Below are positions 5,219-12,761 of a stretch of DNA of 64,000 nt, one piece after another (within the stretch, counting starts at the first letter, position 1; every line of letters begins with the position of its first letter). Origin of the DNA: Thermocrinis minervae. GTDB taxonomy: Bacteria; Aquificota; Aquificia; Aquificales; Aquificaceae. Under the pieces are notes generated by a model. The model searched no databases. It saw only the letters and a program-made list of their open reading frames with translations, and was not told the DNA's origin. A program made the position numbers and the translations under genes. The stretch covers positions 1,082,750 to 1,146,749 of the forward strand of contig NZ_LT670846.1 of assembly GCF_900142435.1 (NCBI RefSeq). The letters run 5' to 3'.

Positions 5219-5237
5219 GTTTTTATTTATTTTATTT

Positions 5238-5243
5238 TATAAT
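5238..5243 (+). promoter_or_regulatory. TATAAT -10 element at the head of the island
   Basis: A perfect TATAAT lies in an AT-rich stretch just after pgsA, 27 nt before the ATG at 5271, with a strong AAAGGAGGG ribosome binding site (5255-5263) between. No convincing -35 was identified. Confidence 0.5.
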
Positions 5244-5279
5244 TTCTTTCATCCAAAGGAGGGTGTGGGTATGAGAAGA
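5243..5279 (+). repeat. QRRVWV box, copy 1
   Basis: First copy of a repeated element with core aaaggagggtgtgggtatg. In one frame it reads FIQRRVWV followed by a TGA that overlaps the next ATG. Here no effector ORF precedes it, so it may be all that remains of one. It carries the ribosome binding site of the exported-protein gene at 5271. Confidence 0.7.
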
Positions 5280-5858
5280 ATAGCGTTATTAACAGCGGTG
5301 TTGATAGTTGTTTTGGCTTTTGTTAGGGTTGGTCTTGGAGAGGATGGAATCTTCAAGTTTGAAAACGGGATATGGTATTTAGATATAGATGATAATGGCA
5401 TAAAGGATGTGGTTATCTGTGGAGAATATTTTACACCTTGGGGAGGCAATATTTATAAGGCTTGTTCTTTTTATTTGAGGACTAAAGAAGGAAAATTATT
5501 CTATATACCTATACCAGCAGAAGGTAACAAAGGGTCAGAAGTAAGTGTTTATACATACTCAAAAGTTGGTGGTTGTGGAAGTAGAATTAATAAGGAGGAA
5601 ATTACGAATCTCTCAAGCTTTAGGCTTATCAAATTAAATAGTGGTGTCTATCTAATACTTGCTAAAAAAGATTGTAAATCTATTGAAAAAATGATTAACA
5701 ATAAATGCCCTTTTAATGTTGTTATATTTAAATACGACCAAGAAGATAAAACCTTTTTAAAGTATAAAACTTATGAGTTAAATAAGCCTTATTGTGACAG
5801 TGAAGAAGTTTTTAAAAATGAGAATAAAATTCTGAAATTATTAGATGGAGGTAGATAA
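5271..5858 (+). CDS. Exported hypothetical protein of the island, candidate immunity protein
   Basis: 195 residues from the ATG at 5271, chosen because GGAGG sits 8 nt upstream; an in-frame GTG at 5265 lies too close to it. The N-terminus ([20 protein letters not shown]) is a signal peptide of the kind shared across the island, ending near GLGED. The mature part is lysine- and cysteine-rich (at least six Cys, including KVGGCGS and KKDCKS), fitting a disulfide-bonded periplasmic protein. I do not recognise a family. It lies 2 nt before an NNPGN/LysM effector gene, so a protective role is inferred from position only. Confidence 0.75.
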
Positions 5859-5860
5859 AA

Positions 5861-6706
5861 ATGGGAAGAGAAGTTGTAAAGGCAGAACAAAAAGGTAGAA
5901 GTGTCTATTACTACTATTCGGATGGAACTTATGAAATAAAAAGCGGGAATAATATTGCCATAAAGACAAACAATCCTGGAAATTTAGTTGAAGATACGCT
6001 TGAAGGTAAAAAATATGGAATCGGCGTTTATGATAGAGGTGATGGAGTTCATAAATTTGCTATATTTCCAGATTTAGAAACAGGGGAAAGAGCTTTACGG
6101 GAATACCTTTTAAGGAAATATAGAGATCAGACGATTGAAGATTTAATGTATAAATATGCTCCACCAGAGTATAACAACACAGAGGCCTATATTCAAACCA
6201 TTGAAAAGGTCGGGATTAATAGAAATTCTAAACTAAGCGATCTAAATCAAGAGCAATTTAATATTCTGGTAGATACAATAATAAAAGTAGAGTCTGGAGG
6301 TAAATTAAGGTCTATTAATTCACAAACTAATCCTATTTCTGGAGATTCTTTGTATAACTCTCTCCCCACCAACCCCCATACCTACACCGTCCAGCCAGGG
6401 GATACACTTTCAAAGATAGCAAAAAGGTATGGGTTAAGTCTTGATGAGCTAATTAAGGCAAATCCTGGGATAAAGGATCCAAATCTTATATACCCTGGGC
6501 AGAAGATAAAAATCCCTGGCTATGCAGAAAAAACTCGCTCCAATCTTAGGGAGGGCACTCGCAGAATTGACCCCCTTGTGATAGACCTTGACGGAGATGG
6601 GATAGAACTGACAGATATTAAAGACTCCACTGCCATGTTTGACATCTCTGGCTCTGGTTTTGCAAACAGGGTTTATAATCTTACTCAGAGGAGGGTGTGG
6701 GGATGA
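5861..6706 (+). CDS. Peptidoglycan-targeting effector: NNPGN muralytic domain, LysM, truncated Ca-binding module
   Basis: 281 residues without a signal peptide. Residues about 34-145 resemble the NNPGN-type domain of phage-associated peptidoglycan hydrolases (TNNPGN at 36-41, [28 protein letters not shown]). Residues 174-218 are a clear LysM peptidoglycan-binding domain ([19 protein letters not shown]). Residues 221-271 match the start of the EF-hand module in the 10202 effector ([15 protein letters not shown]), but the protein then jumps directly to the tail [10 protein letters not shown]. This looks like an internal deletion of the calcium-binding module. The stop overlaps the next ATG (ATGA). 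Muralytic activity is inferred from family resemblance. Confidence 0.82.
6521..6673 (+). repeat. Effector core repeat, copy A
   Basis: This segment encodes [11 protein letters not shown] through [14 protein letters not shown] to SGSGFANRV and is nearly identical at DNA level to 10697-10861. Copy A lacks about 12 bp (four codons) just before DPLV. It marks the shared module of the two effectors and is long enough to support homologous recombination between them. Confidence 0.9.
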
Positions 6707-6711
6707 GAAGG
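6673..6711 (+). repeat. QRRVWV box, copy 2
   Basis: The box encodes effector tail [10 protein letters not shown] and contains TATAAT at 6674-6679, exactly 23 nt before the ATG at 6703. It also holds the GAGGAGGG ribosome binding site for that gene, and the effector stop overlaps the start (ATGA). Confidence 0.8.
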
Positions 6712-7314
6712 GTATGTGAGGTATTGGCCTTTATCATATTACTTTTTTTAAATTTTTTAAACCCTCTTTATGCAGAAACCATCGAATCAGTAGGAGAAAA
6801 TACCGAACATTTAACAGAGTTTATATGTGGTAATGCTATTGTAAAAGTATTAACTCATTGTGTTTATTGTGAAGATTTACCTCCATTTTGTGTATCTGAT
6901 AAACAGTATATTGTTTTGAAAAACATTTTAAGTGATAGGAAACAAATCTTGCTCTCATCTTCTCCAACATACGCTGGAGAAAAATATGCATTTTTGAACA
7001 AAGAAAAAGTTAAAGGAAAGCGTATTTTACAGTATTTGATAGTAGAAGTAAGCTGTTACAAGGCAAAAACTGATAACAAGTATTATATTGAATTAAGTTA
7101 TTACAACGGTGGCAATTGCGAACAATGTGAATATTTTGAACTTTATAATGATGAAGGAAAGTTGATACTAACGGATAGAGAAAAAATTTTCTATAAACCT
7201 AAATCATTTCAATTTAACAAAATTTTAAAGAAATATGCCCTTGAATATAAAAAATTCAAATTAGAAGGTATAAAAAATTTGGAAATAAACCCATGCAGGA
7301 GGGATAAATCATGA
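6703..7314 (+). CDS. Exported Cys-rich protein, paralogue of the 11871 gene, candidate immunity protein
   Basis: 203 residues from the ATG at 6703, which overlaps the effector stop. A signal peptide runs to about LNPLYA. The mature protein is paralogous to the 11871 product: both share SSSPxY, a xVSCY or xVMCY strand, [16 protein letters not shown] versus YYRGGNCAECTYLEVY, and xxSDREKI or TDREKI. Several Cys pairs ([15 protein letters not shown]) suggest disulfides. It directly follows a muralytic effector and is translationally coupled to it, so a cognate periplasmic immunity role is the simplest reading, though no known family supports it. Confidence 0.8.
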
Positions 7315-7424
7315 AAAGAAAGACTCATTTTTATGAGCCTATTGATCGCACTCCAGGAAGACTTGCAGGTAATAATTTCATCCAAAGGAGGGTGTGGGTA
7401 TGGGAAAAGTGGGTAGGTTTCTAA
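7311..7424 (+). pseudogene. Effector remnant: start region fused to QRRVWV tail
   Basis: A 37-codon frame begins at an ATG overlapping the previous stop (ATGA), with GGAGGG upstream. It runs [20 protein letters not shown] and then directly into [10 protein letters not shown]. The lack of any domain between a well-initiated start and the effector tail suggests an internal deletion. The original domain is not recognisable. Unlike the other copies it reads past the next ATG, stopping about 20 nt inside the following gene. Confidence 0.5.
7371..7405 (+). repeat. QRRVWV box, copy 3
   Basis: This copy has AATAAT (one mismatch to TATAAT) at 7371-7376, 23 nt before the ATG at 7400, followed by AAAGGAGGG. 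It encodes FIQRRVWV in the remnant that begins at 7311. Confidence 0.75.
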
Positions 7425-8344
7425 CTGTATTTCTTCTTTTACTCCTTTTAACACTTTCTACTTATGTTTATGCAGAGCAAAAAGAAACAGTTAGTCTTGA
7501 GTATGTAGGAACTATAAAAAATATTCCTAATTTATATTTTGAAGAAAATCCGTTTTATCCTTCTAAACCTGTTTTGGTGTCTAAAAACTATCTGGTGGTT
7601 AATACTAAACAAGATGATAAATACGGAGTGTTTATTCTTGGTTTAGACGGTAAAATATATTTGCATAAAAAAGATGTAATTGCTACGTCTGTATCCCAAA
7701 ACAGTAGATATTTTATTTTGGAAAGTACAGATTCCAAAAAAATGAAAACAACTAAAGAATGTGAATACGGTTATGCTACGTCTATCTATATTTTTGACGC
7801 TAAAGATGTGAATAACATAAAACAAATAGCAAATTTCAAAGCATGTAGTTTTAATTATGCATTCTCTCCTAATGGAGAATACTTAGCTCTTACAGTTCCA
7901 AAAAATAACTTAAACAGAGAAGAAAATATACCATTTAAATTATTTCAACTCCACAATCTATATGTAAATGGCTGGATTAATGATGAAACTATAATAGTAA
8001 ATAAAATTATAAAGTCTAAAGGATCAATAGAAGTTGAGCCACATGGGGATTACTACTATCGTAAATTTTATTATATGGGAATTAAAAAGGGCTCACAAAT
8101 TGAATTTACATCTGGATTATTACAGATTTTACAAGTTGCAAAGGATAAACTAATTTTTAAAGATTATAACAACTGCAAACTTTTTTCTCATGATATGGGA
8201 CAAATTTTAGCATGTGCCCTGTATGTATATGATTTTCAAAAACGAAAAAAACTACTTGCTGGATATGAAAATGAGTATTATACTTTTTCGCAGCTACAGC
8301 TTTTGAGTTTAGTAATAGATGAAAAAAAGCAACAAATTGAATAA
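7400..8344 (+). CDS. Exported beta-propeller-like protein, N-terminal part (frameshifted)
   Basis: 314 residues from the ATG at 7400, with a signal peptide ending near STYVYAEQ. The mature part has repeated strands reminiscent of TolB/WD40-type propellers (YFILESTDSKK, IYIFDAKDVNNIKQIANF, YAFSPNGEYLALTVPKNN). The frame ends shortly after an A7 tract (8312-8318) in a region with no natural domain end, and the following ORF continues the same style of sequence in the +1 frame. The two are probably one gene split by one extra A. Its position behind an effector remnant suggests an orphan immunity or periplasmic sensor gene; function unknown. Confidence 0.7.
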   Translation: MGKVGRFLTVFLLLLLLTLSTYVYAEQKETVSLEYVGTIKNIPNLYFEENPFYPSKPVLVSKNYLVVNTKQDDKYGVFILGLDGKIYLHKKDVIATSVSQNSRYFILESTDSKKMKTTKECEYGYATSIYIFDAKDVNNIKQIANFKACSFNYAFSPNGEYLALTVPKNNLNREENIPFKLFQLHNLYVNGWINDETIIVNKIIKSKGSIEVEPHGDYYYRKFYYMGIKKGSQIEFTSGLLQILQVAKDKLIFKDYNNCKLFSHDMGQILACALYVYDFQKRKKLLAGYENEYYTFSQLQLLSLVIDEKKQQIE

Positions 8345-8558
8345 GCCAGCAAAAGTTTTGTTTTATAAATGGGATGATGGATTTAAATATTTAGGAGCGG
8401 TTCAATTAAGCTCAGGCTACGCTACTAAAAAGACTCTCCTTCATCCTTATATATCTCCAGATGAATCTATTGTAGCATTTCCAATCATAACAAATATTTT
8501 AAATGTTGGACCTAATTTTTACATTGATATCTATAAACTTAAAATTGAAAGGAGGTAG
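8319..8558 (+). CDS. C-terminal part of the frameshifted beta-propeller-like protein
   Basis: A 79-codon frame (VLFYKWDDGFKYLGAV, YISPDESIVAFPIITN, YIDIYKLKIERR) that continues the propeller-like pattern of the 7400 ORF in the +1 frame. SPDESIVAF parallels SPNGEYLAL in the first part. The nominal start has no ribosome binding site and overlaps the upstream frame just behind A7. I read it as the displaced 3' end of that gene, not an independent protein. Confidence 0.6.
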   Translation: MKKSNKLNKPAKVLFYKWDDGFKYLGAVQLSSGYATKKTLLHPYISPDESIVAFPIITNILNVGPNFYIDIYKLKIERR

Positions 8559-8563
8559 GAAAA

Positions 8564-8686
8564 ATGAACTACAATCCTGGACCACAATTTAGAAAAACCT
8601 CAGGTTATGGAAGGCGAATACACCCGATAACAGGCAAGCCAAATAGGTTGCTATATAATTTTACTCAAAGAAGGGTGTGGGTATGA
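8564..8686 (+). pseudogene. M23 peptidase effector remnant fused to QRRVWV tail
   Basis: A 40-codon frame with a strong AAAGGAGG site upstream. It contains SGYGRRIHPITGK, the typical opening of LytM/M23 endopeptidase domains, just before the first zinc-ligand histidine of that family. It then passes directly into NRLLYNFTQRRVWV, matching the tail of the 10202 effector. The catalytic domain has been deleted in frame, while the start signals and the TGA/ATG overlap with the next gene are intact. Confidence 0.65.
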
Positions 8687-8689
8687 AAA
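8651..8689 (+). repeat. QRRVWV box, copy 4
   Basis: This copy has TATAAT at 8654-8659, 23 nt before the ATG at 8683, and an AAAGAAGGG ribosome binding site (one change from the other copies). Its similarity to copy 5 extends upstream through taggttgc, so both derive from the same effector C-terminus. Confidence 0.8.
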
Positions 8690-9624
8690 AGGTTTTTAAA
8701 AACTTTGTTCTAACGGTTGTTTTGGTTTTGGCGTTTGTTAGAGTTGGTTTTGGGGAGGAAAAACAGGGAGGGCAAATTGAGAAAAAATACCCTCCGTATC
8801 CTGATGTATGGGAATGGATGTTCCCTATAGAGAAGGGTACATACATTGCCCCTTCCTTGATAAAATTACAAACTGGTGATTATGTAGTTATAAAAAGAAG
8901 ATTTATAGGTGCTACAATTACAAGTGAAAAAAGTATTCCAGTTGCCTGTTATCTTCTTTTTGAAAATCAACAATTACCAATGGATGAATGCGAAAAATTA
9001 CATGACTGTGCCATATACAATAAAAACTGTGATTTTCTTAAACAGAAGAATGCCAAGATTATCGAAGAGTCTTACCTTAAAGATGAATTTCCTATATACA
9101 GTGGTGACGTTATGCTTGATCTTGGTGGCATAAGCATGGGCTCTCCTAAATGCTCAATGGGATACAAATCAATTGTATTAAAGAATGTAAAAGAGAATAA
9201 AATTATCTTATCCGTTGTGCCTGTTTATCTTTATGATAAGCCTATAAAAGTATATATAAATCCTTATTGTGAATGGAATTGGGACTATAACTATAGTAAG
9301 GATTATATTCTCTCACCGATCTCATTCGGAGATGTTTTTTCGGGTATTTATCCCTTAGAAGATGGCAATTTTCTGATGAAGATTAATATGGGAAAAAGCG
9401 GTGTGTACTTTATAAGATTCGACAGTATGATGCAGACAAAAAGTTCTATAGTTGGAAGAAGAATTTTCTTCATTAAAGAGGATGAATTCAAGAAGTTAAT
9501 GTTTAAACAAGTAAATGTCCGAGAAGATGAGCTGCATCCCTATAGTGATTACGAGATATATAAGAATATTTTAAACTACATCAAATCTAAATACTTAAAA
9601 AACTCAAAAGGGGGTAAACCATGA
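8683..9624 (+). CDS. Exported hypothetical protein, candidate immunity to an M23-type effector
   Basis: 313 residues from the ATG at 8683. Its signal-peptide DNA is almost identical to that of the 11871 gene ([21 protein letters not shown] versus RNFVLTVVLVLTFIGIGFGQE), while the mature parts are unrelated. The mature protein is aromatic-rich with several Cys (MDECEKLHDC, YNKNCDF, NPYCEWNWDY). It follows the M23 remnant and overlaps the next gene (ATGA), forming a pair with the 9621 membrane protein. No family is recognised; the immunity role is inferred from context. Confidence 0.75.
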   Translation: MKKVFKNFVLTVVLVLAFVRVGFGEEKQGGQIEKKYPPYPDVWEWMFPIEKGTYIAPSLIKLQTGDYVVIKRRFIGATITSEKSIPVACYLLFENQQLPMDECEKLHDCAIYNKNCDFLKQKNAKIIEESYLKDEFPIYSGDVMLDLGGISMGSPKCSMGYKSIVLKNVKENKIILSVVPVYLYDKPIKVYINPYCEWNWDYNYSKDYILSPISFGDVFSGIYPLEDGNFLMKINMGKSGVYFIRFDSMMQTKSSIVGRRIFFIKEDEFKKLMFKQVNVREDELHPYSDYEIYKNILNYIKSKYLKNSKGGKP

Positions 9625-9649
9625 ATAACTATATGACTGAAGAAAAGCC
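9613..9649 (+). repeat. MNNYMTEEK repeat, copy 1
   Basis: A ggtaaacc leader plus the first codons of the 9621 gene, duplicated at 12499-12545 after another exported-protein gene. Confidence 0.75.
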
Positions 9650-10199
9650 AATCATGGTTTTAAAATATCAACCATTAAGAGTTATAAGTTTTATTATGTT
9701 TCTAGGAATACCTGCTATAGGAATGGGTTTTATAGGATTATTATTTATGTCTAAAGAACACTCTAAAAATCTATTTGATTACTATTTCGTAAAATATTTT
9801 GGCTCAGTTTGGATTATTATAATAGGGAGTTATTTAGTTATTGATTTAGTTAATACAGATAGGATAGAACTATATAAAAATAAGATTGTAAAGATATACC
9901 GAATACCATTGTTTAGTGATAAGAAAGAGATTTATTTAAATAATGATACTCATATCTTTATGACTTGGTCTAGTATCAGATTATACGATAAAAAGCCTAC
10001 TATTACAAATAGGATAATAAGTTTTCTTTTTATATTTTTCAGCAATGCATTTTTTATTCACATAAATAGGTTTAATAAAAAAGACCAAGAACGATTTGCT
10101 GACTTTTTATCAGAAATTTCAGGAAGGCCTAAAGAATATTTTTTGTATAGATCTGATAGCTCTATAAAACCTTTAATTATCAAAAACAAGGAGGTTTAG
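9621..10199 (+). CDS. Small membrane protein of the island (two helices)
   Basis: 192 residues. The ATG overlaps the upstream stop (ATGA). Two hydrophobic segments lie near residues 21-47 and 62-80, followed by a basic cytoplasmic-looking part (KKEIYLNNDTHIFMTWSSIRLYDKK) whose strands recall bacterial PH-like domains, and a third hydrophobic stretch near RIISFLFIFFSNAFFIHI. The family is not recognised. Its first ten or so codons recur at 12507 behind another exported-protein gene, so an exported protein plus membrane protein pair seems to be a repeating unit of the array. A membrane-located immunity function is inference. Confidence 0.72.
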   Translation: MNNYMTEEKPIMVLKYQPLRVISFIMFLGIPAIGMGFIGLLFMSKEHSKNLFDYYFVKYFGSVWIIIIGSYLVIDLVNTDRIELYKNKIVKIYRIPLFSDKKEIYLNNDTHIFMTWSSIRLYDKKPTITNRIISFLFIFFSNAFFIHINRFNKKDQERFADFLSEISGRPKEYFLYRSDSSIKPLIIKNKEV

Positions 10200-10201
10200 G
10201 T

Positions 10202-11293
10202 ATGGCAGAGCAAAGAAATAATAATCAGGAAAATATTGTGGATGCAATGAAACCTACTCCTATGGACATTCCATCAAGCTTAAACACTTTTTTATCAGCA
10301 TTAGCTGAAAAATCTCTTGATAAACTTATAGGAGAGAGTGAGCAATTTATAGATACAAGGGCATTACCGAATGCATTAGCTACTAAGTTTACTGCTATTG
10401 ATCTATTGATGACATATGTTTCTTATGAAGAAAAACTACAAGAAGGTAAGACAAAACAAGAAGCTATAGGAGAAGCTTTAGCAGAAACTTTAGGTGGAAC
10501 TTTGGGAGGAGCTGTAGGTGGATCTCTTTTTGGACCTGTTGGAGCAGTTGGAGGAGCTTATATTGTTTCACGAGTTGGTTTATTTACCTGGGATAAATTT
10601 ATGGATTTTCTTAAAGCTTTAGCGGAATGGTCGGTACAGAGGGAATCAGAAGAGTCAATCCAAACGGAAATAAACACGGAGCAGAATGTTAATTCATATG
10701 CCGAAAAAGCTCGCTCCAATCTCAGAGAAGCCACACGTATCATTCCTCTTATATTTGACCCCCTTGTGATAGACCTTGATGGAGATGGGATAGAACTGAC
10801 AGATATTAATGACTCCACTGCCATGTTTGACCTTTCTGGCTCTGGGTTTGCAAACAAAGTGGGATGGATAAGCAAGGATGATGGATTTTTGGTTTTGGAT
10901 AAAAATAACGATAACAGAATAAACGACATCTCTGAGATGTTTGGAAATGCCACTCAGTCTGGCTTTGCTATGCTTTCTCTTTATGACACAAACAGAGACG
11001 GTAGAATTGATGCCTTTGATGATGTGTTTAAGAACCTCAAAGTATGGCAGGACAAAAATGCAGACGGAAGAACTGATGAAGGAGAGCTTAGAAGCCTCTC
11101 TGAGCTTGGAATAAAATCCATAAACTTAAACACTAAAAAGACAAACATAAATCAAGGTGGAAACCAGATAACAGAGATAGGTACAGTTGAAAAGGAAGAT
11201 GGCACAAAAACGCAAGCTGGCAATGTGAATTTTGAGCTTGATAGGCTTTATAGGTTGCCATATAATTTTACTCAAAGGAGGGTGTGGGTATGA
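10202..11293 (+). CDS. Effector with glycine-zipper segment and EF-hand/RTX-like Ca-binding module
   Basis: 363 residues without a signal peptide, preceded by AAGGAGG. Residues about 90-127 form a small-residue-rich hydrophobic stretch (LGGTLGGAVGGSLFGPVGAVGG), a glycine zipper typical of membrane-inserting peptides. Residues 186-300 carry four acidic calcium-binding loops: [40 protein letters not shown] and DKNADGRTDEGEL. This module is known from large RTX/hemolysin-type secreted proteins. The C-terminus is YNFTQRRVWV. The stop overlaps the LprI-like gene start. Secretion by a type I system and pore formation are plausible but unproven, and no secretion genes are nearby. Confidence 0.8.
   Translation: MAEQRNNNQENIVDAMKPTPMDIPSSLNTFLSALAEKSLDKLIGESEQFIDTRALPNALATKFTAIDLLMTYVSYEEKLQEGKTKQEAIGEALAETLGGTLGGAVGGSLFGPVGAVGGAYIVSRVGLFTWDKFMDFLKALAEWSVQRESEESIQTEINTEQNVNSYAEKARSNLREATRIIPLIFDPLVIDLDGDGIELTDINDSTAMFDLSGSGFANKVGWISKDDGFLVLDKNNDNRINDISEMFGNATQSGFAMLSLYDTNRDGRIDAFDDVFKNLKVWQDKNADGRTDEGELRSLSELGIKSINLNTKKTNINQGGNQITEIGTVEKEDGTKTQAGNVNFELDRLYRLPYNFTQRRVWV
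10697..10861 (+). repeat. Effector core repeat, copy B
   Basis: The long copy of the shared effector core (see 6521-6673), encoding YAEKARSNLRE to SGSGFANKV. It continues into an intact EF-hand module, which copy A lacks. Confidence 0.9.
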
Positions 11294-11299
11294 GAAGGG
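11261..11299 (+). repeat. QRRVWV box, copy 5
   Basis: TATAAT at 11261-11266 lies 23 nt before the ATG at 11290, with AAAGGAGGG between. It encodes the intact effector tail YNFTQRRVWV, whose stop overlaps the next start. Confidence 0.85.
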
Positions 11300-11721
11300 T
11301 TTTTAAAAGCCTGGTGTTAGTGTTTGTTTTGGTTTTTGTTTTTGTTGTGGTTAGCTTTAGTGAAGAAAAACAAGAAAAGCATCCTATTGATGTATGGCTT
11401 GAAAAATGTATAGAGAAAGATTCTTCAACTGCTGAAATGATAAACTGCTCCAATAAAGCTTATGAAATGTGGGATAAAGAGCTCAATAGAGTATATCAAG
11501 AACTTATGAAAAAGCTTTCTCCAGAAGAAAAGGAATTACTTAAAGAAAGCCAAAGGCAATGGCTTAAGTTCAGAGATGCAGAGTTTAGGTTTATAAATCA
11601 AATATATGGATATGAAGGTGGTTTTTATCATACACAAAGAATAGGTAGCAAAATTGACTTGGTTAGAGAGAGAGTTTTACATCTATTGGATTATCTAAAA
11701 GAAAAAATGATTTCTAATTAA
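11290..11721 (+). CDS. LprI-family (DUF1311) lysozyme-inhibitor-like exported protein
   Basis: 143 residues from the ATG at 11290. A signal peptide occupies residues 1 to about 24. The mature part is an LprI/DUF1311 domain: Cys40 and Cys53 frame the conserved MINCSNKAYEMWDKELNRVY, followed by SQRQWLKFRDAEFRF. Members of this family include periplasmic or surface inhibitors of lysozyme, giving a functional argument that these exported genes protect against muralytic effectors. It is translationally coupled to the 10202 effector and followed by a GH108 muramidase remnant. Whether it inhibits either is not shown by the sequence. Confidence 0.9.
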   Translation: MRRVFKSLVLVFVLVFVFVVVSFSEEKQEKHPIDVWLEKCIEKDSSTAEMINCSNKAYEMWDKELNRVYQELMKKLSPEEKELLKESQRQWLKFRDAEFRFINQIYGYEGGFYHTQRIGSKIDLVRERVLHLLDYLKEKMISN

Positions 11722-11733
11722 GGAGGCATAGCC

Positions 11734-11826
11734 ATGGATGTATTCATGATGGCTCTTAAGTTTACAAAAAAGGCTGAAGGGGGATATGTAAATGATCCTG
11801 ATGATCCGGGTGGTCCTACGAAATAA
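11734..11826 (+). pseudogene. GH108 muramidase remnant (N-terminal 30 codons)
   Basis: A 30-codon frame with AAGGAGG upstream. It contains the opening of the glycosyl hydrolase 108 family, FTKKAEGGYVNDPDDPGG, including the catalytic-type Glu of the EGGY motif, then stops after PTK. The next 44 nt hold no continuation of the family. Another effector truncated to its start region, directly before an exported-protein gene. Confidence 0.65.
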
Positions 11827-11870
11827 AGATTTGATTATTAATGGACAAGGAAAGTTAGGAAGATATTGGT

Positions 11871-12503
11871 ATGAGAAGGGTTTTTAGAAACTTTGTTCTA
11901 ACGGTTGTTTTGGTTTTGACATTTATCGGGATTGGCTTTGGGCAGGAAAACCTAAAACCAAGAATAGATTATCAAGTAGTAAAAAGATTAGATTGTAAAC
12001 ACCTTAAAGTAACTCTAACTACTCACTGTCTCATTGAGGTTATGAATTCGGCATACAGAACATGTTTAGCAGATGATCAATATGTCCTTATAACAAATGA
12101 AAAAGAAAGCAAAAAACTAATAAACTCATCATCACCTAAATACAGCTTTGATATGTTTTCTGAATTTGTAGACGAAAATGAAGATATTGTTAATAAGAAG
12201 TTAAAGGATAAAAAAGTTTTAGATTATGAAATTTCAGAAGTGATGTGTTATACGGATAAAAAAGGGAAACCATACATAGGACTTGAGTATTACAGAGGAG
12301 GTAACTGTGCAGAGTGTACATACTTAGAAGTTTACGATGAATTTGGCAATCTTGTCATTTCAGATAGAGAGAAAATATCGCTAAGTAGAAAGAATCTTCC
12401 TTATAGTGAATATCATACTAAATTGAGACAAATTGCAAAAAATACAAAAAATAAAATGAAAAAGCTCGGTTTAGTAAAAGTTAAGAGTATAGAAGGGAGG
12501 TAA
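11871..12503 (+). CDS. Exported Cys-rich protein, paralogue of the 6703 gene, candidate immunity protein
   Basis: 210 residues; signal peptide MRRVFRNFVLTVVLVLTFIG. The mature domain is paralogous to the 6703 product, with aligned TTHC, SSSPKY, EVMCY, YYRGGNCAECTYLEVYDEFGN and SDREKI. The gene lacks the QRRVWV box of the other copies; its ribosome site is a weaker AGGAAG at 11857-11862. Two members behind two different hydrolases (NNPGN/LysM and GH108) suggest that this family protects against glycan-strand-cleaving enzymes, an inference from synteny only. Confidence 0.8.
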   Translation: MRRVFRNFVLTVVLVLTFIGIGFGQENLKPRIDYQVVKRLDCKHLKVTLTTHCLIEVMNSAYRTCLADDQYVLITNEKESKKLINSSSPKYSFDMFSEFVDENEDIVNKKLKDKKVLDYEISEVMCYTDKKGKPYIGLEYYRGGNCAECTYLEVYDEFGNLVISDREKISLSRKNLPYSEYHTKLRQIAKNTKNKMKKLGLVKVKSIEGR

Positions 12504-12506
12504 ACC

Positions 12507-12632
12507 ATGAATAACTATATGACAGAAGAAAAGCTAATCGCGGTTACGCCGCAGGCTTGTAAGACACTCTTTTATTATCTGTTCTTCCAGGATTTCGTAC
12601 AGGTCCAATATGTGAGTTCTCCTACCTTCTAG
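12507..12632 (+). pseudogene. Truncated copy of the 9621 membrane-protein gene
   Basis: The ggtaaaccatg leader and first codons (MNNYMTEEK) repeat those of the 9621 gene. Similarity ends near 12545; the frame then reads antisense through the selA remnant to a TAG at 12630. This marks the right-hand junction of the island with older chromosome. Confidence 0.6.
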
Positions 12633-12761
12633 TATCTCTTTCCTGAAGCTTTCCAACACTTTCCTGGCAGCGCTCTTTATGTAAACTTCTGGGTATTTGT
12701 CTCTGTACCTTTCTACGAGCTTTAATACTTGGGGCAGTTCCTTCAACAGTTCCTTTTTCAT
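12534..12761 (-). pseudogene. selA: selA 5' remnant (selenocysteine synthase N-terminal domain)
   Basis: A 75-codon frame starting MKKELLKELPQVLKLVERYR, with IKSAARKVLESFRKEILEGR and ending SLRRNRD. This resembles the N-terminal domain of L-seryl-tRNA(Sec) selenium transferase, where LRR is normally followed by the conserved VINATG motif opening the PLP domain. Here the sequence changes to island DNA at that point (near 12545), so the PLP domain is missing and the gene cannot make a working enzyme. The identity call rests on about 70 residues. It is divergent from the COG2187 kinase gene. Confidence 0.55.

Follow-up and report, generated by a model that had tools for sequence, protein, structure and literature searches.

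A probably decayed array of FrpC-type effector cassettes and candidate immunity genes in Thermocrinis minervae

The window analysed here is a stretch of 64,000 nucleotides from Thermocrinis minervae (Aquificaceae; contig NZ_LT670846.1), whose genome is a single contig of 1.37 Mb; all coordinates are window positions unless another locus is named. Near the left end of the window lies an island of candidate effector and immunity genes (5219-12545), with a GC content of 0.325 inside and 0.459 across the remaining window. A preliminary description, made from the sequence alone, had noted this AT-rich block of about 7.3 kb and placed it between pgsA and a truncated selA. The block and its left flank are borne out, in that the left neighbour encodes a CDP-alcohol phosphatidyltransferase, as expected of pgsA. 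The right flank is not: the 75-amino-acid open reading frame (ORF) called selA (12534-12761, minus strand) has a best Pfam match of E 0.15.

The island comprises six exported genes, of which one is split, a single membrane gene and five effector genes, some reduced to stubs. All are on the plus strand and readable as six units. These are imm1 and eff1 (unit 1); imm2 and a stub (unit 2); the split imm3 and an M23 stub (unit 3); imm4, mem4 and eff4 (unit 4); a gene for an LprI homologue and a GH108 stub (unit 5); and imm6 and a second mem4-like gene of which only a truncated start is left (unit 6). A near-constant leader, including the ribosome-binding site and start codon, opens five of the units. 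Two effector genes carry a self-processing module (SPM) like that of the Neisseria meningitidis protein FrpC, which is described below. The assignment of signal peptides and of the membrane protein is based on sequence and hydrophobicity. The features, all on the plus strand, are as follows, with the basis for each in parentheses.

5242-5281, plus: leader copy 1, with ribosome-binding site and start codon (pattern and DNA similarity)
5271-5858, plus: imm1, exported CarG-like protein, candidate immunity to eff1 (Pfam match below cut-off)
5861-6706, plus: eff1, NNPGN hydrolase-like domain, LysM, and an SPM cut after 34 positions (profile matches; PHROG endolysin match for the N-terminus)
6674-6713, plus: leader copy 2 (pattern and DNA similarity)
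6703-7314, plus: imm2, exported, paralogue of imm6, 33% identical in the alignment (sequence comparison)
7311-7424, plus: stub of 37 amino acids, probably the start of an effector, which reads into the following leader (read from the sequence)
7371-7410, plus: leader copy 3 (pattern and DNA similarity)
7400-8558, plus: imm3, exported, broken into two ORFs with ends at 8344 and 8558 (ORF reading)
8564-8686, plus: M23 peptidase effector stub (similarity to an ORF of genome G051)
8654-8693, plus: leader copy 4 (pattern and DNA similarity)
8683-9624, plus: imm4, exported (sequence)
9621-10199, plus: mem4, membrane protein, candidate immunity to eff4 (homologues immediately 5' of an SPM effector at locus L033 and in the G051 array)
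10202-11293, plus: eff4, glycine-zipper-like N-terminus and near-complete SPM, without RTX repeats (SPM homology, profile match)
10757-11251, plus: FrpC-type SPM with Asp-Pro at its start (homology to FrpC)
11261-11300, plus: leader copy 5 (pattern and DNA similarity)
11290-11721, plus: LprI lysozyme-inhibitor homologue, candidate immunity to GH108 (Pfam E 1.4e-22)
11734-11826, plus: GH108 muramidase effector stub (PF05838 and similarity to locus L083)
11871-12503, plus: imm6, exported, paralogue of imm2 (sequence comparison)
12507-12545, plus: truncated start of the second mem4-like gene, and right edge of the island (DNA similarity)

The C-terminal part of eff4 is an FrpC SPM (6sjw, E 2.7e-27). 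In FrpC, this module carries EF-hand-like calcium sites, folds in the presence of calcium, cleaves an Asp-Pro bond and is able to link the freed aspartyl residue to lysine (passages of PMC7078468). The C-terminal modules of eff1 and eff4 are 92% identical over 111 nucleotides; the SPM is near-complete only in eff4 (profile positions 1-165), and both copies retain the Asp-Pro at the SPM start. The earlier reading of this shared module as EF-hand/RTX-like stands for the EF-hand part, whereas RTX repeats are absent from both copies. At the positions of FrpC D478 and D579, as read from the alignment to FrpC, eff4 has Asn, and the double change to Asn in FrpC lowers cleavage without abolishing it (PMC7078468). 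The frames of eff1 and eff4 both terminate within the following leader. Both genes retain their toxin domains and lack a secretion part; the other three effector genes are stubs. The GH108 stub matches PF05838 above its cut-off (E 2.5e-6). The 28-amino-acid M23 stub has no Pfam match itself; it is 76% identical over 25 amino acids to a G051 ORF that matches M23 above the cut-off, so both hydrolase remnants named in the preliminary description are supported. The glycine-zipper-like stretch of eff4 is encoded by five copies of a 12-nucleotide repeat (10459-10518). The SPM at 10757-11230 matches PHROG 3677, a family labelled 'protease' (E 8e-27), so that an SPM may be present in some phage proteins annotated in this way.

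The five signal-peptide genes reported earlier (5271, 6703, the split 7400, 8683 and 11871), together with LprI (11290) and the membrane protein (9621), are all recovered. The stub at 7311-7424 and the mem4-like remnant at 12507-12545 come in addition to the features noted earlier. Five of the six exported immunity candidates and mem4 are open, compared with two of the five effector frames. The imm1 protein matches a CarG-like Pfam family with E 9.6e-6 and 26.2 bits, under the cut-off of 28, and its homologue at locus L139 exceeds that cut-off. For imm3, Pfam gives only weak WD40/propeller-like matches (E 0.03 and worse). An AlphaFold2 model of imm1, made from one sequence, has a mean pLDDT of 44 and was too poor for a fold search. 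A literature search on CarG returned nothing useful among the records listed, and a PADLOC scan gave a single weak match, of LprI to ZorB (E 0.001).

The leader is specific to the island. The pattern RAGGGTGTGGGNATG has five matches in the 1.37-Mb genome, all of them inside the island; across the whole genome, there are no reverse-strand matches and none for the reversed pattern. Between two copies, similarity of 80% extends across 132 nucleotides and reaches into the signal peptide. Leaders of unrelated window genes have a mean identity of 0.68 (14 pairs), compared with 0.58 between window genes and homologous genes of other genomes (19 pairs) and 0.56 for shuffles; the p-value of 1.5e-5 ignores genes common to several pairs, and the imm1 leader was placed 3 nucleotides off the true start. 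Because leaders within the array are more alike than leaders of homologous genes, the leader goes with the array and not with the immunity domain, which suggests capture of genes behind a resident leader. A scan for promoters and terminators did no better than shuffles (28 sites against 33.8, and 3 against 3.3), so no promoter is claimed for the leader.

SPM genes also occur outside this phylum. A scan of species genomes yielded at least 250 SPM relatives, and 80 loci were kept. In many of these loci, a small gene precedes one that encodes a variable N-terminal region followed by an SPM and RTX repeats. The claim that the variable domain is N-terminal and the shared module C-terminal is upheld by the diversity of the N-terminal regions: among 77 of them, Pfam detects RTX repeats (10), Mbeg1-like domains (6), class 3 lipases (4), AHH nucleases and RHS repeats (3 each), and one each of glucosaminidase, M23, phage lysozyme, transglycosylase and others. 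A tight upstream ORF, meaning one on the same strand, of at least 90 amino acids and within 60 nucleotides, precedes 50 of the 74 SPM genes with a closed 5' end, compared with 83 of 233 control genes of the same loci (p 1.8e-6). With a hydrophobic N-terminus required, the counts are 29/74 and 16/233 (p 3e-10); an initial threshold gave 39/74, and the controls were run with the stricter threshold only. Pfam searches of 53 upstream ORFs found Imm11 in six, an HlyC acyltransferase in one and propeller-like matches in two. The LprI match in this set is the L083 gene, which had been added to it, and the CarG-like match is imm1 itself, so neither is independent support. In a Sulfuricurvum metagenome-assembled genome (MAG), HlyB (894 bits; cut-off 725.55), HlyD (339 bits; cut-off 208.65) and an outer-membrane efflux gene lie within the SPM gene cluster. 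Type I exporter genes also lie inside an SPM cluster at L191:13015-16436 and L193:4646-5959, where two SPM genes are full-length and several more are truncated.

Two cognate pairs of the island are conserved elsewhere. Among the matches listed, the locus closest to the island is L083, in a Nitrospirae MAG, which has four units: an exported gene with an NNEGN effector and partial SPM; a membrane gene with an effector and partial SPM; LprI with a GH108 effector and SPM; and an exported 377-amino-acid protein with an M23 effector that carries an SPM and RTX repeats and runs off the contig end. Its GH108 (E 4.5e-27) and M23 domains are both supported by Pfam. In the LprI/GH108 pair, the window and L083 proteins match on both sides (LprI, 50% identity, E 8e-42; GH108, 55% over 29 amino acids, E 2e-5). 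In the mem4/glycine-zipper pair, the window and L033 proteins likewise do so (mem4, 30%, E 1e-15; glycine-zipper domain, 30%, E 1e-17). Two other candidate pairings were rejected. For imm1 and NNPGN, the effectors match (28% over 144 amino acids, E 2e-5) and the immunity proteins reach E 0.04 at best. For imm3 and M23, the effectors match, and imm3 has phmmer E-values of 2.9 and 2.1 against the upstream proteins of L026 and L083, in the first direction tried and with a 23-protein set. The L026 and L083 upstream proteins are themselves only weakly similar (phmmer E 0.08-0.18; BLASTP 0.048).

Truncated cassettes appear to have a preferred position. In 30 whole genomes, there are 22 short SPM copies (open frame under 800 amino acids), and 11 of these have a full-length copy (at least 1000 amino acids) within 15 kb on the same contig. 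All 11 sit 5' of the nearest full-length copy on its strand; three of the remaining 11 are in a second cluster of G164, and eight are isolated. In G139 and G141, where the full-length gene is about 32 kb, and in G156 (four copies), where it runs off the contig, a 3' copy was unobservable. Two G147 copies have a full-length gene on either side, the nearer one placing them 5' and the farther one 3'. The 5' position is free of such limits in three copies only (one each in G147, G161 and G164). Because few loci could show 3' copies, a 5' rule is only suggestive. The pattern looks like the mirror image of that in contact-dependent inhibition (CDI), as expected with a constant part that is C-terminal. 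At L042 and L045 (G139:C47 and G141:C56), in Sphingobium, SPM genes have frames of about 10,700 amino acids, with a second in-frame SPM far downstream and a truncated SPM copy on the 5' side.

Within the phylum, 20 of the 136 Aquificota genomes surveyed have an SPM match. Copies of at least 55% identity are present only in T. minervae (G000), G051 and G067, and the remainder are 31-43% identical. G067 encodes a lipase-like N-terminus, an SPM, a linker and RTX repeats within one open frame, and another of its contigs has a row of genes for an outer-membrane efflux protein, a C39/ABC transporter and an HlyD above the cut-off. G051 has a decayed array resembling that of the window and no HlyD above the cut-off. 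The longer SPM of this array (L026:10473-10961) lacks Asp-Pro at its start and, judging by this residue pair, should not self-process. Each of 17 genomes has one SPM-like match in the 31-43% range beyond the array-type copies (18 with one G067 copy). The two that were inspected (L008:1015-1974 and L029:5595-6566) are separate proteins of about 320 amino acids with a diverged SPM-like C-terminus, outside arrays.

The immunity families also occur in arrays free of SPMs. Apart from T. minervae itself, only G054, G099, G101 and G103 among the 136 genomes have relatives of imm1 (E at most 0.001). The imm2/imm6 profile matches exactly the same genomes, so that the CarG-like and imm2/6 families each occur in 5/136; LprI relatives, some of them weak or fragmentary, are in seven other genomes (8/136 with this one). 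In G054, G099, G101 and G103, relatives of the immunity families share their orientation with additional small exported genes. The SPM search gave no match in these four genomes, their array stretches contain no match to the window and L083 effector domains, and HlyD above the cut-off is absent from all seven genomes scored (these four and three more with LprI). A transposase-like ORF, recognized by eye (L143:3558-4145), borders the G054 array and is a possible vehicle of transfer. Ratios of nonsynonymous to synonymous substitution (dN/dS) are 0.23, 0.14 and 0.21 for CarG-like family a, 0.16 for CarG-like family b, 0.15 for an unnamed 196-amino-acid family, 0.19 and 0.46 for imm2/6, and 0.64 for LprI. 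Bootstrap intervals are under 1 in seven of the eight pairs (those with ratios of 0.14-0.46), all from SPM-free genomes, so these relatives are under purifying selection. The neighbouring gene used as a yardstick, which we take to be feoB, has dN/dS values of 0.10 and 0.11. The preliminary description had counted the occurrence of the exported genes without effectors in relatives against its effector/immunity proposal. Such occurrence, now seen for the CarG-like, LprI and imm2/imm6 families, does argue against an obligatory pair, yet it is predicted by orphan immunity. Retention of the genes without SPM effectors or an exporter would be expected under orphan immunity, and equally under a private envelope function.

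Taken together, these data make it probable that the island is an SPM-RTX effector/immunity array in decay, with its immunity genes as the main reason for its retention, as in acquired interbacterial defence. In the ancestral form, a small exported or membrane immunity protein would be encoded first, followed by a large secreted toxin protein that comprises a variable N-terminal toxin domain, an SPM and RTX repeats and leaves by a type I exporter. Outside the cell, the protein would fold in calcium, and the SPM would cut its own Asp-Pro bond, thereby freeing the toxin or tying it to lysine. Immunity and toxin cassettes would have been swapped by recombination at the conserved leader and SPM, with truncated cassettes left behind. 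In T. minervae, the RTX ends appear to have been lost, as does the exporter within the scope of the searches, leaving effectors that are truncated or stubs. The island would now most likely be retained as an orphan-immunity array against the SPM-RTX toxins of neighbours, acting in the periplasm or inner membrane.

Several observations weigh against this reading. The class of SPM genes is not uniform, because no tight upstream gene is present at 24 of the 74 SPM genes, and the Asp before the SPM proline, which is present in 59 of 80 loci, is absent in 21. The imm1-eff1 and imm3-M23 pairs are conserved on the effector side only, and imm4 has no relative among the 136 Aquificota genomes apart from this one. 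Not all genes of the SPM-free arrays are maintained, as judged by ORF length: propeller-like genes are split in G101 and G103 and CarG-like b in G054, and short forms include the imm2/6 member in G054 and G099, LprI in G101 and one member of a 398-amino-acid family in G054. The LprI dN/dS, with bounds up to 1.38, is uninformative; the eight dN/dS pairs are mutually dependent, and none includes T. minervae. Other effectors or exporters could have been missed, with HlyB scored in the T. minervae genome only. Toxicity and inhibition by the island products are predicted from sequence.

Alternately, the island might be a neutral relic of horizontally acquired DNA, in which neither half functions and the immunity genes are merely unbroken so far. 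The low GC content, the stubs, the split imm3 and the truncated or split genes in related arrays would all fit such a relic. We nonetheless consider it unlikely, given the excess of open frames among the exported genes and mem4 over the effectors, and the purifying selection on related genes of SPM-free genomes.

A working armoury, in which eff1 and eff4 exit by an unrecognized route and kill neighbours, is somewhat less likely still. Both frames are open, with intact N-terminal domains, Asp-Pro and a candidate immunity gene directly upstream. However, the two SPM copies of the window are the only ones in this genome, neither is followed by RTX repeats, both frames end in the next leader, and three of the five effectors are stubs. 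No HlyB or HlyD in the genome is above its curated cut-off (best scores 217 bits against 725.55 for HlyB and 67 bits against 208.65 for HlyD). Because RTX ends and such an exporter are absent, a working armoury was rejected as the primary explanation. The effector/immunity proposal of the preliminary description thus persists in part: two conserved pairs, the enrichment of tight upstream genes and Imm11 in 6/53 upstream ORFs favour it, whereas the loss of the means of secretion does not favour functioning weapons.

It is improbable that the exported proteins act in the envelope of their own cell, perhaps by controlling its hydrolases, with the effector neighbourhood being secondary. Judging by their family names, LprI and CarG-like proteins have other annotated roles, and relatives exist without effectors; on the other side stand the patchy spread of the families (imm4 in only 1/136), the co-oriented arrays with shared leaders and the cognate pairs elsewhere. 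Lastly, a prophage lysis module or its debris, which the preliminary description had named as a finding that would overturn it, scarcely merits belief: the eff1 N-terminus (E 2e-16) and GH108 stub resemble phage endolysins, the SPM matches the family labelled protease and LprI a phage family of unknown function, but no similar DNA is found among 50,697 phage records, the island has no structural or packaging gene, and SPMs are typical of type I-secreted proteins.

The decayed-array reading resembles several known systems. In FrpD-FrpC of N. meningitidis, an exported protein is likewise encoded upstream of a protein with an N-terminal domain, Asp-Pro and a homologous SPM. The island differs in having neither RTX repeats nor a recognized exporter, and its toxins are peptidoglycan hydrolases and a glycine-zipper protein; no window protein could be assigned the FrpD fold, the model of imm1 being too poor. 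In 2019, an antibacterial role for FrpC, with FrpD as its immunity protein, was put forward as a hypothesis (PMC6759196). Adhesion and virulence have also been proposed as roles of FrpC, FrpD and the SPM (passages of PMC7078468). Bacteroidales acquired interbacterial defence, including its recombinase-associated form (rAID), shares co-oriented short orphan immunity genes and a conserved intergenic motif (passages of PMC12247911). In contrast, the island would target type I-secreted SPM-RTX toxins and not those of the type VI secretion system, its proteins are exported, its motif covers the ribosome-binding site and signal peptide, and effector remains persist. No recombinase was recognized beside the window array, the flanks of which were not profile-searched for recombinases.

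CDI and Rhs systems also join variable toxin and immunity modules to a secretion part that stays constant, and carry orphan modules next to the full-length gene; in CDI, these orphan modules lie downstream (passages of PMC3150448). CDI and Rhs toxins are C-terminal, with a downstream immunity gene, whereas here the toxins are N-terminal, the immunity-like genes are upstream, the constant part is C-terminal, and truncated cassettes lie 5', within the limits of that test. The 2012 survey of polymorphic toxins (PMC3482391) describes modular toxins and immunity genes, and Imm11, as noted, is upstream of some SPM genes. Passages of it mention type I secretion for RTX toxins, and its text has neither FrpC nor T1SS (the type I secretion system) as a term. 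No description of these arrays was found in the open-licence PubMed Central literature. As far as this search shows, three points are new: SPMs joined to muralytic cassettes that have matching inhibitors, the probable mirror-image arrangement, and the SPM-free shared-leader arrays of Aquificota.

More broadly, FrpC-type SPM-RTX proteins may be a widespread class of polymorphic antibacterial toxins that are secreted by the type I route, carry the toxin at the N-terminus, are encoded after their immunity genes and have truncated cassettes on the 5' side of the full-length gene. Some thermophilic Aquificota would then have converted such loci into exported orphan-immunity arrays, with the shared leader and signal peptide as the capture site for new immunity domains. 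We regard this generalization as tentative, with the balance slightly against it. If it is true, FrpD would be an immunity protein, and the clip-and-link chemistry would be a step in toxin release or anchoring. The joining of SPMs to peptidoglycan hydrolases, and the lysozyme-inhibitor homologue beside a muramidase, point to bacterial targets, and concrete toxin/immunity pairs are now available for testing. If the SPM-free arrays protect their hosts, orphan immunity would extend to type I-secreted toxins and to hot-spring bacteria, and capture behind a resident leader might represent a new mode by which immunity genes are acquired.

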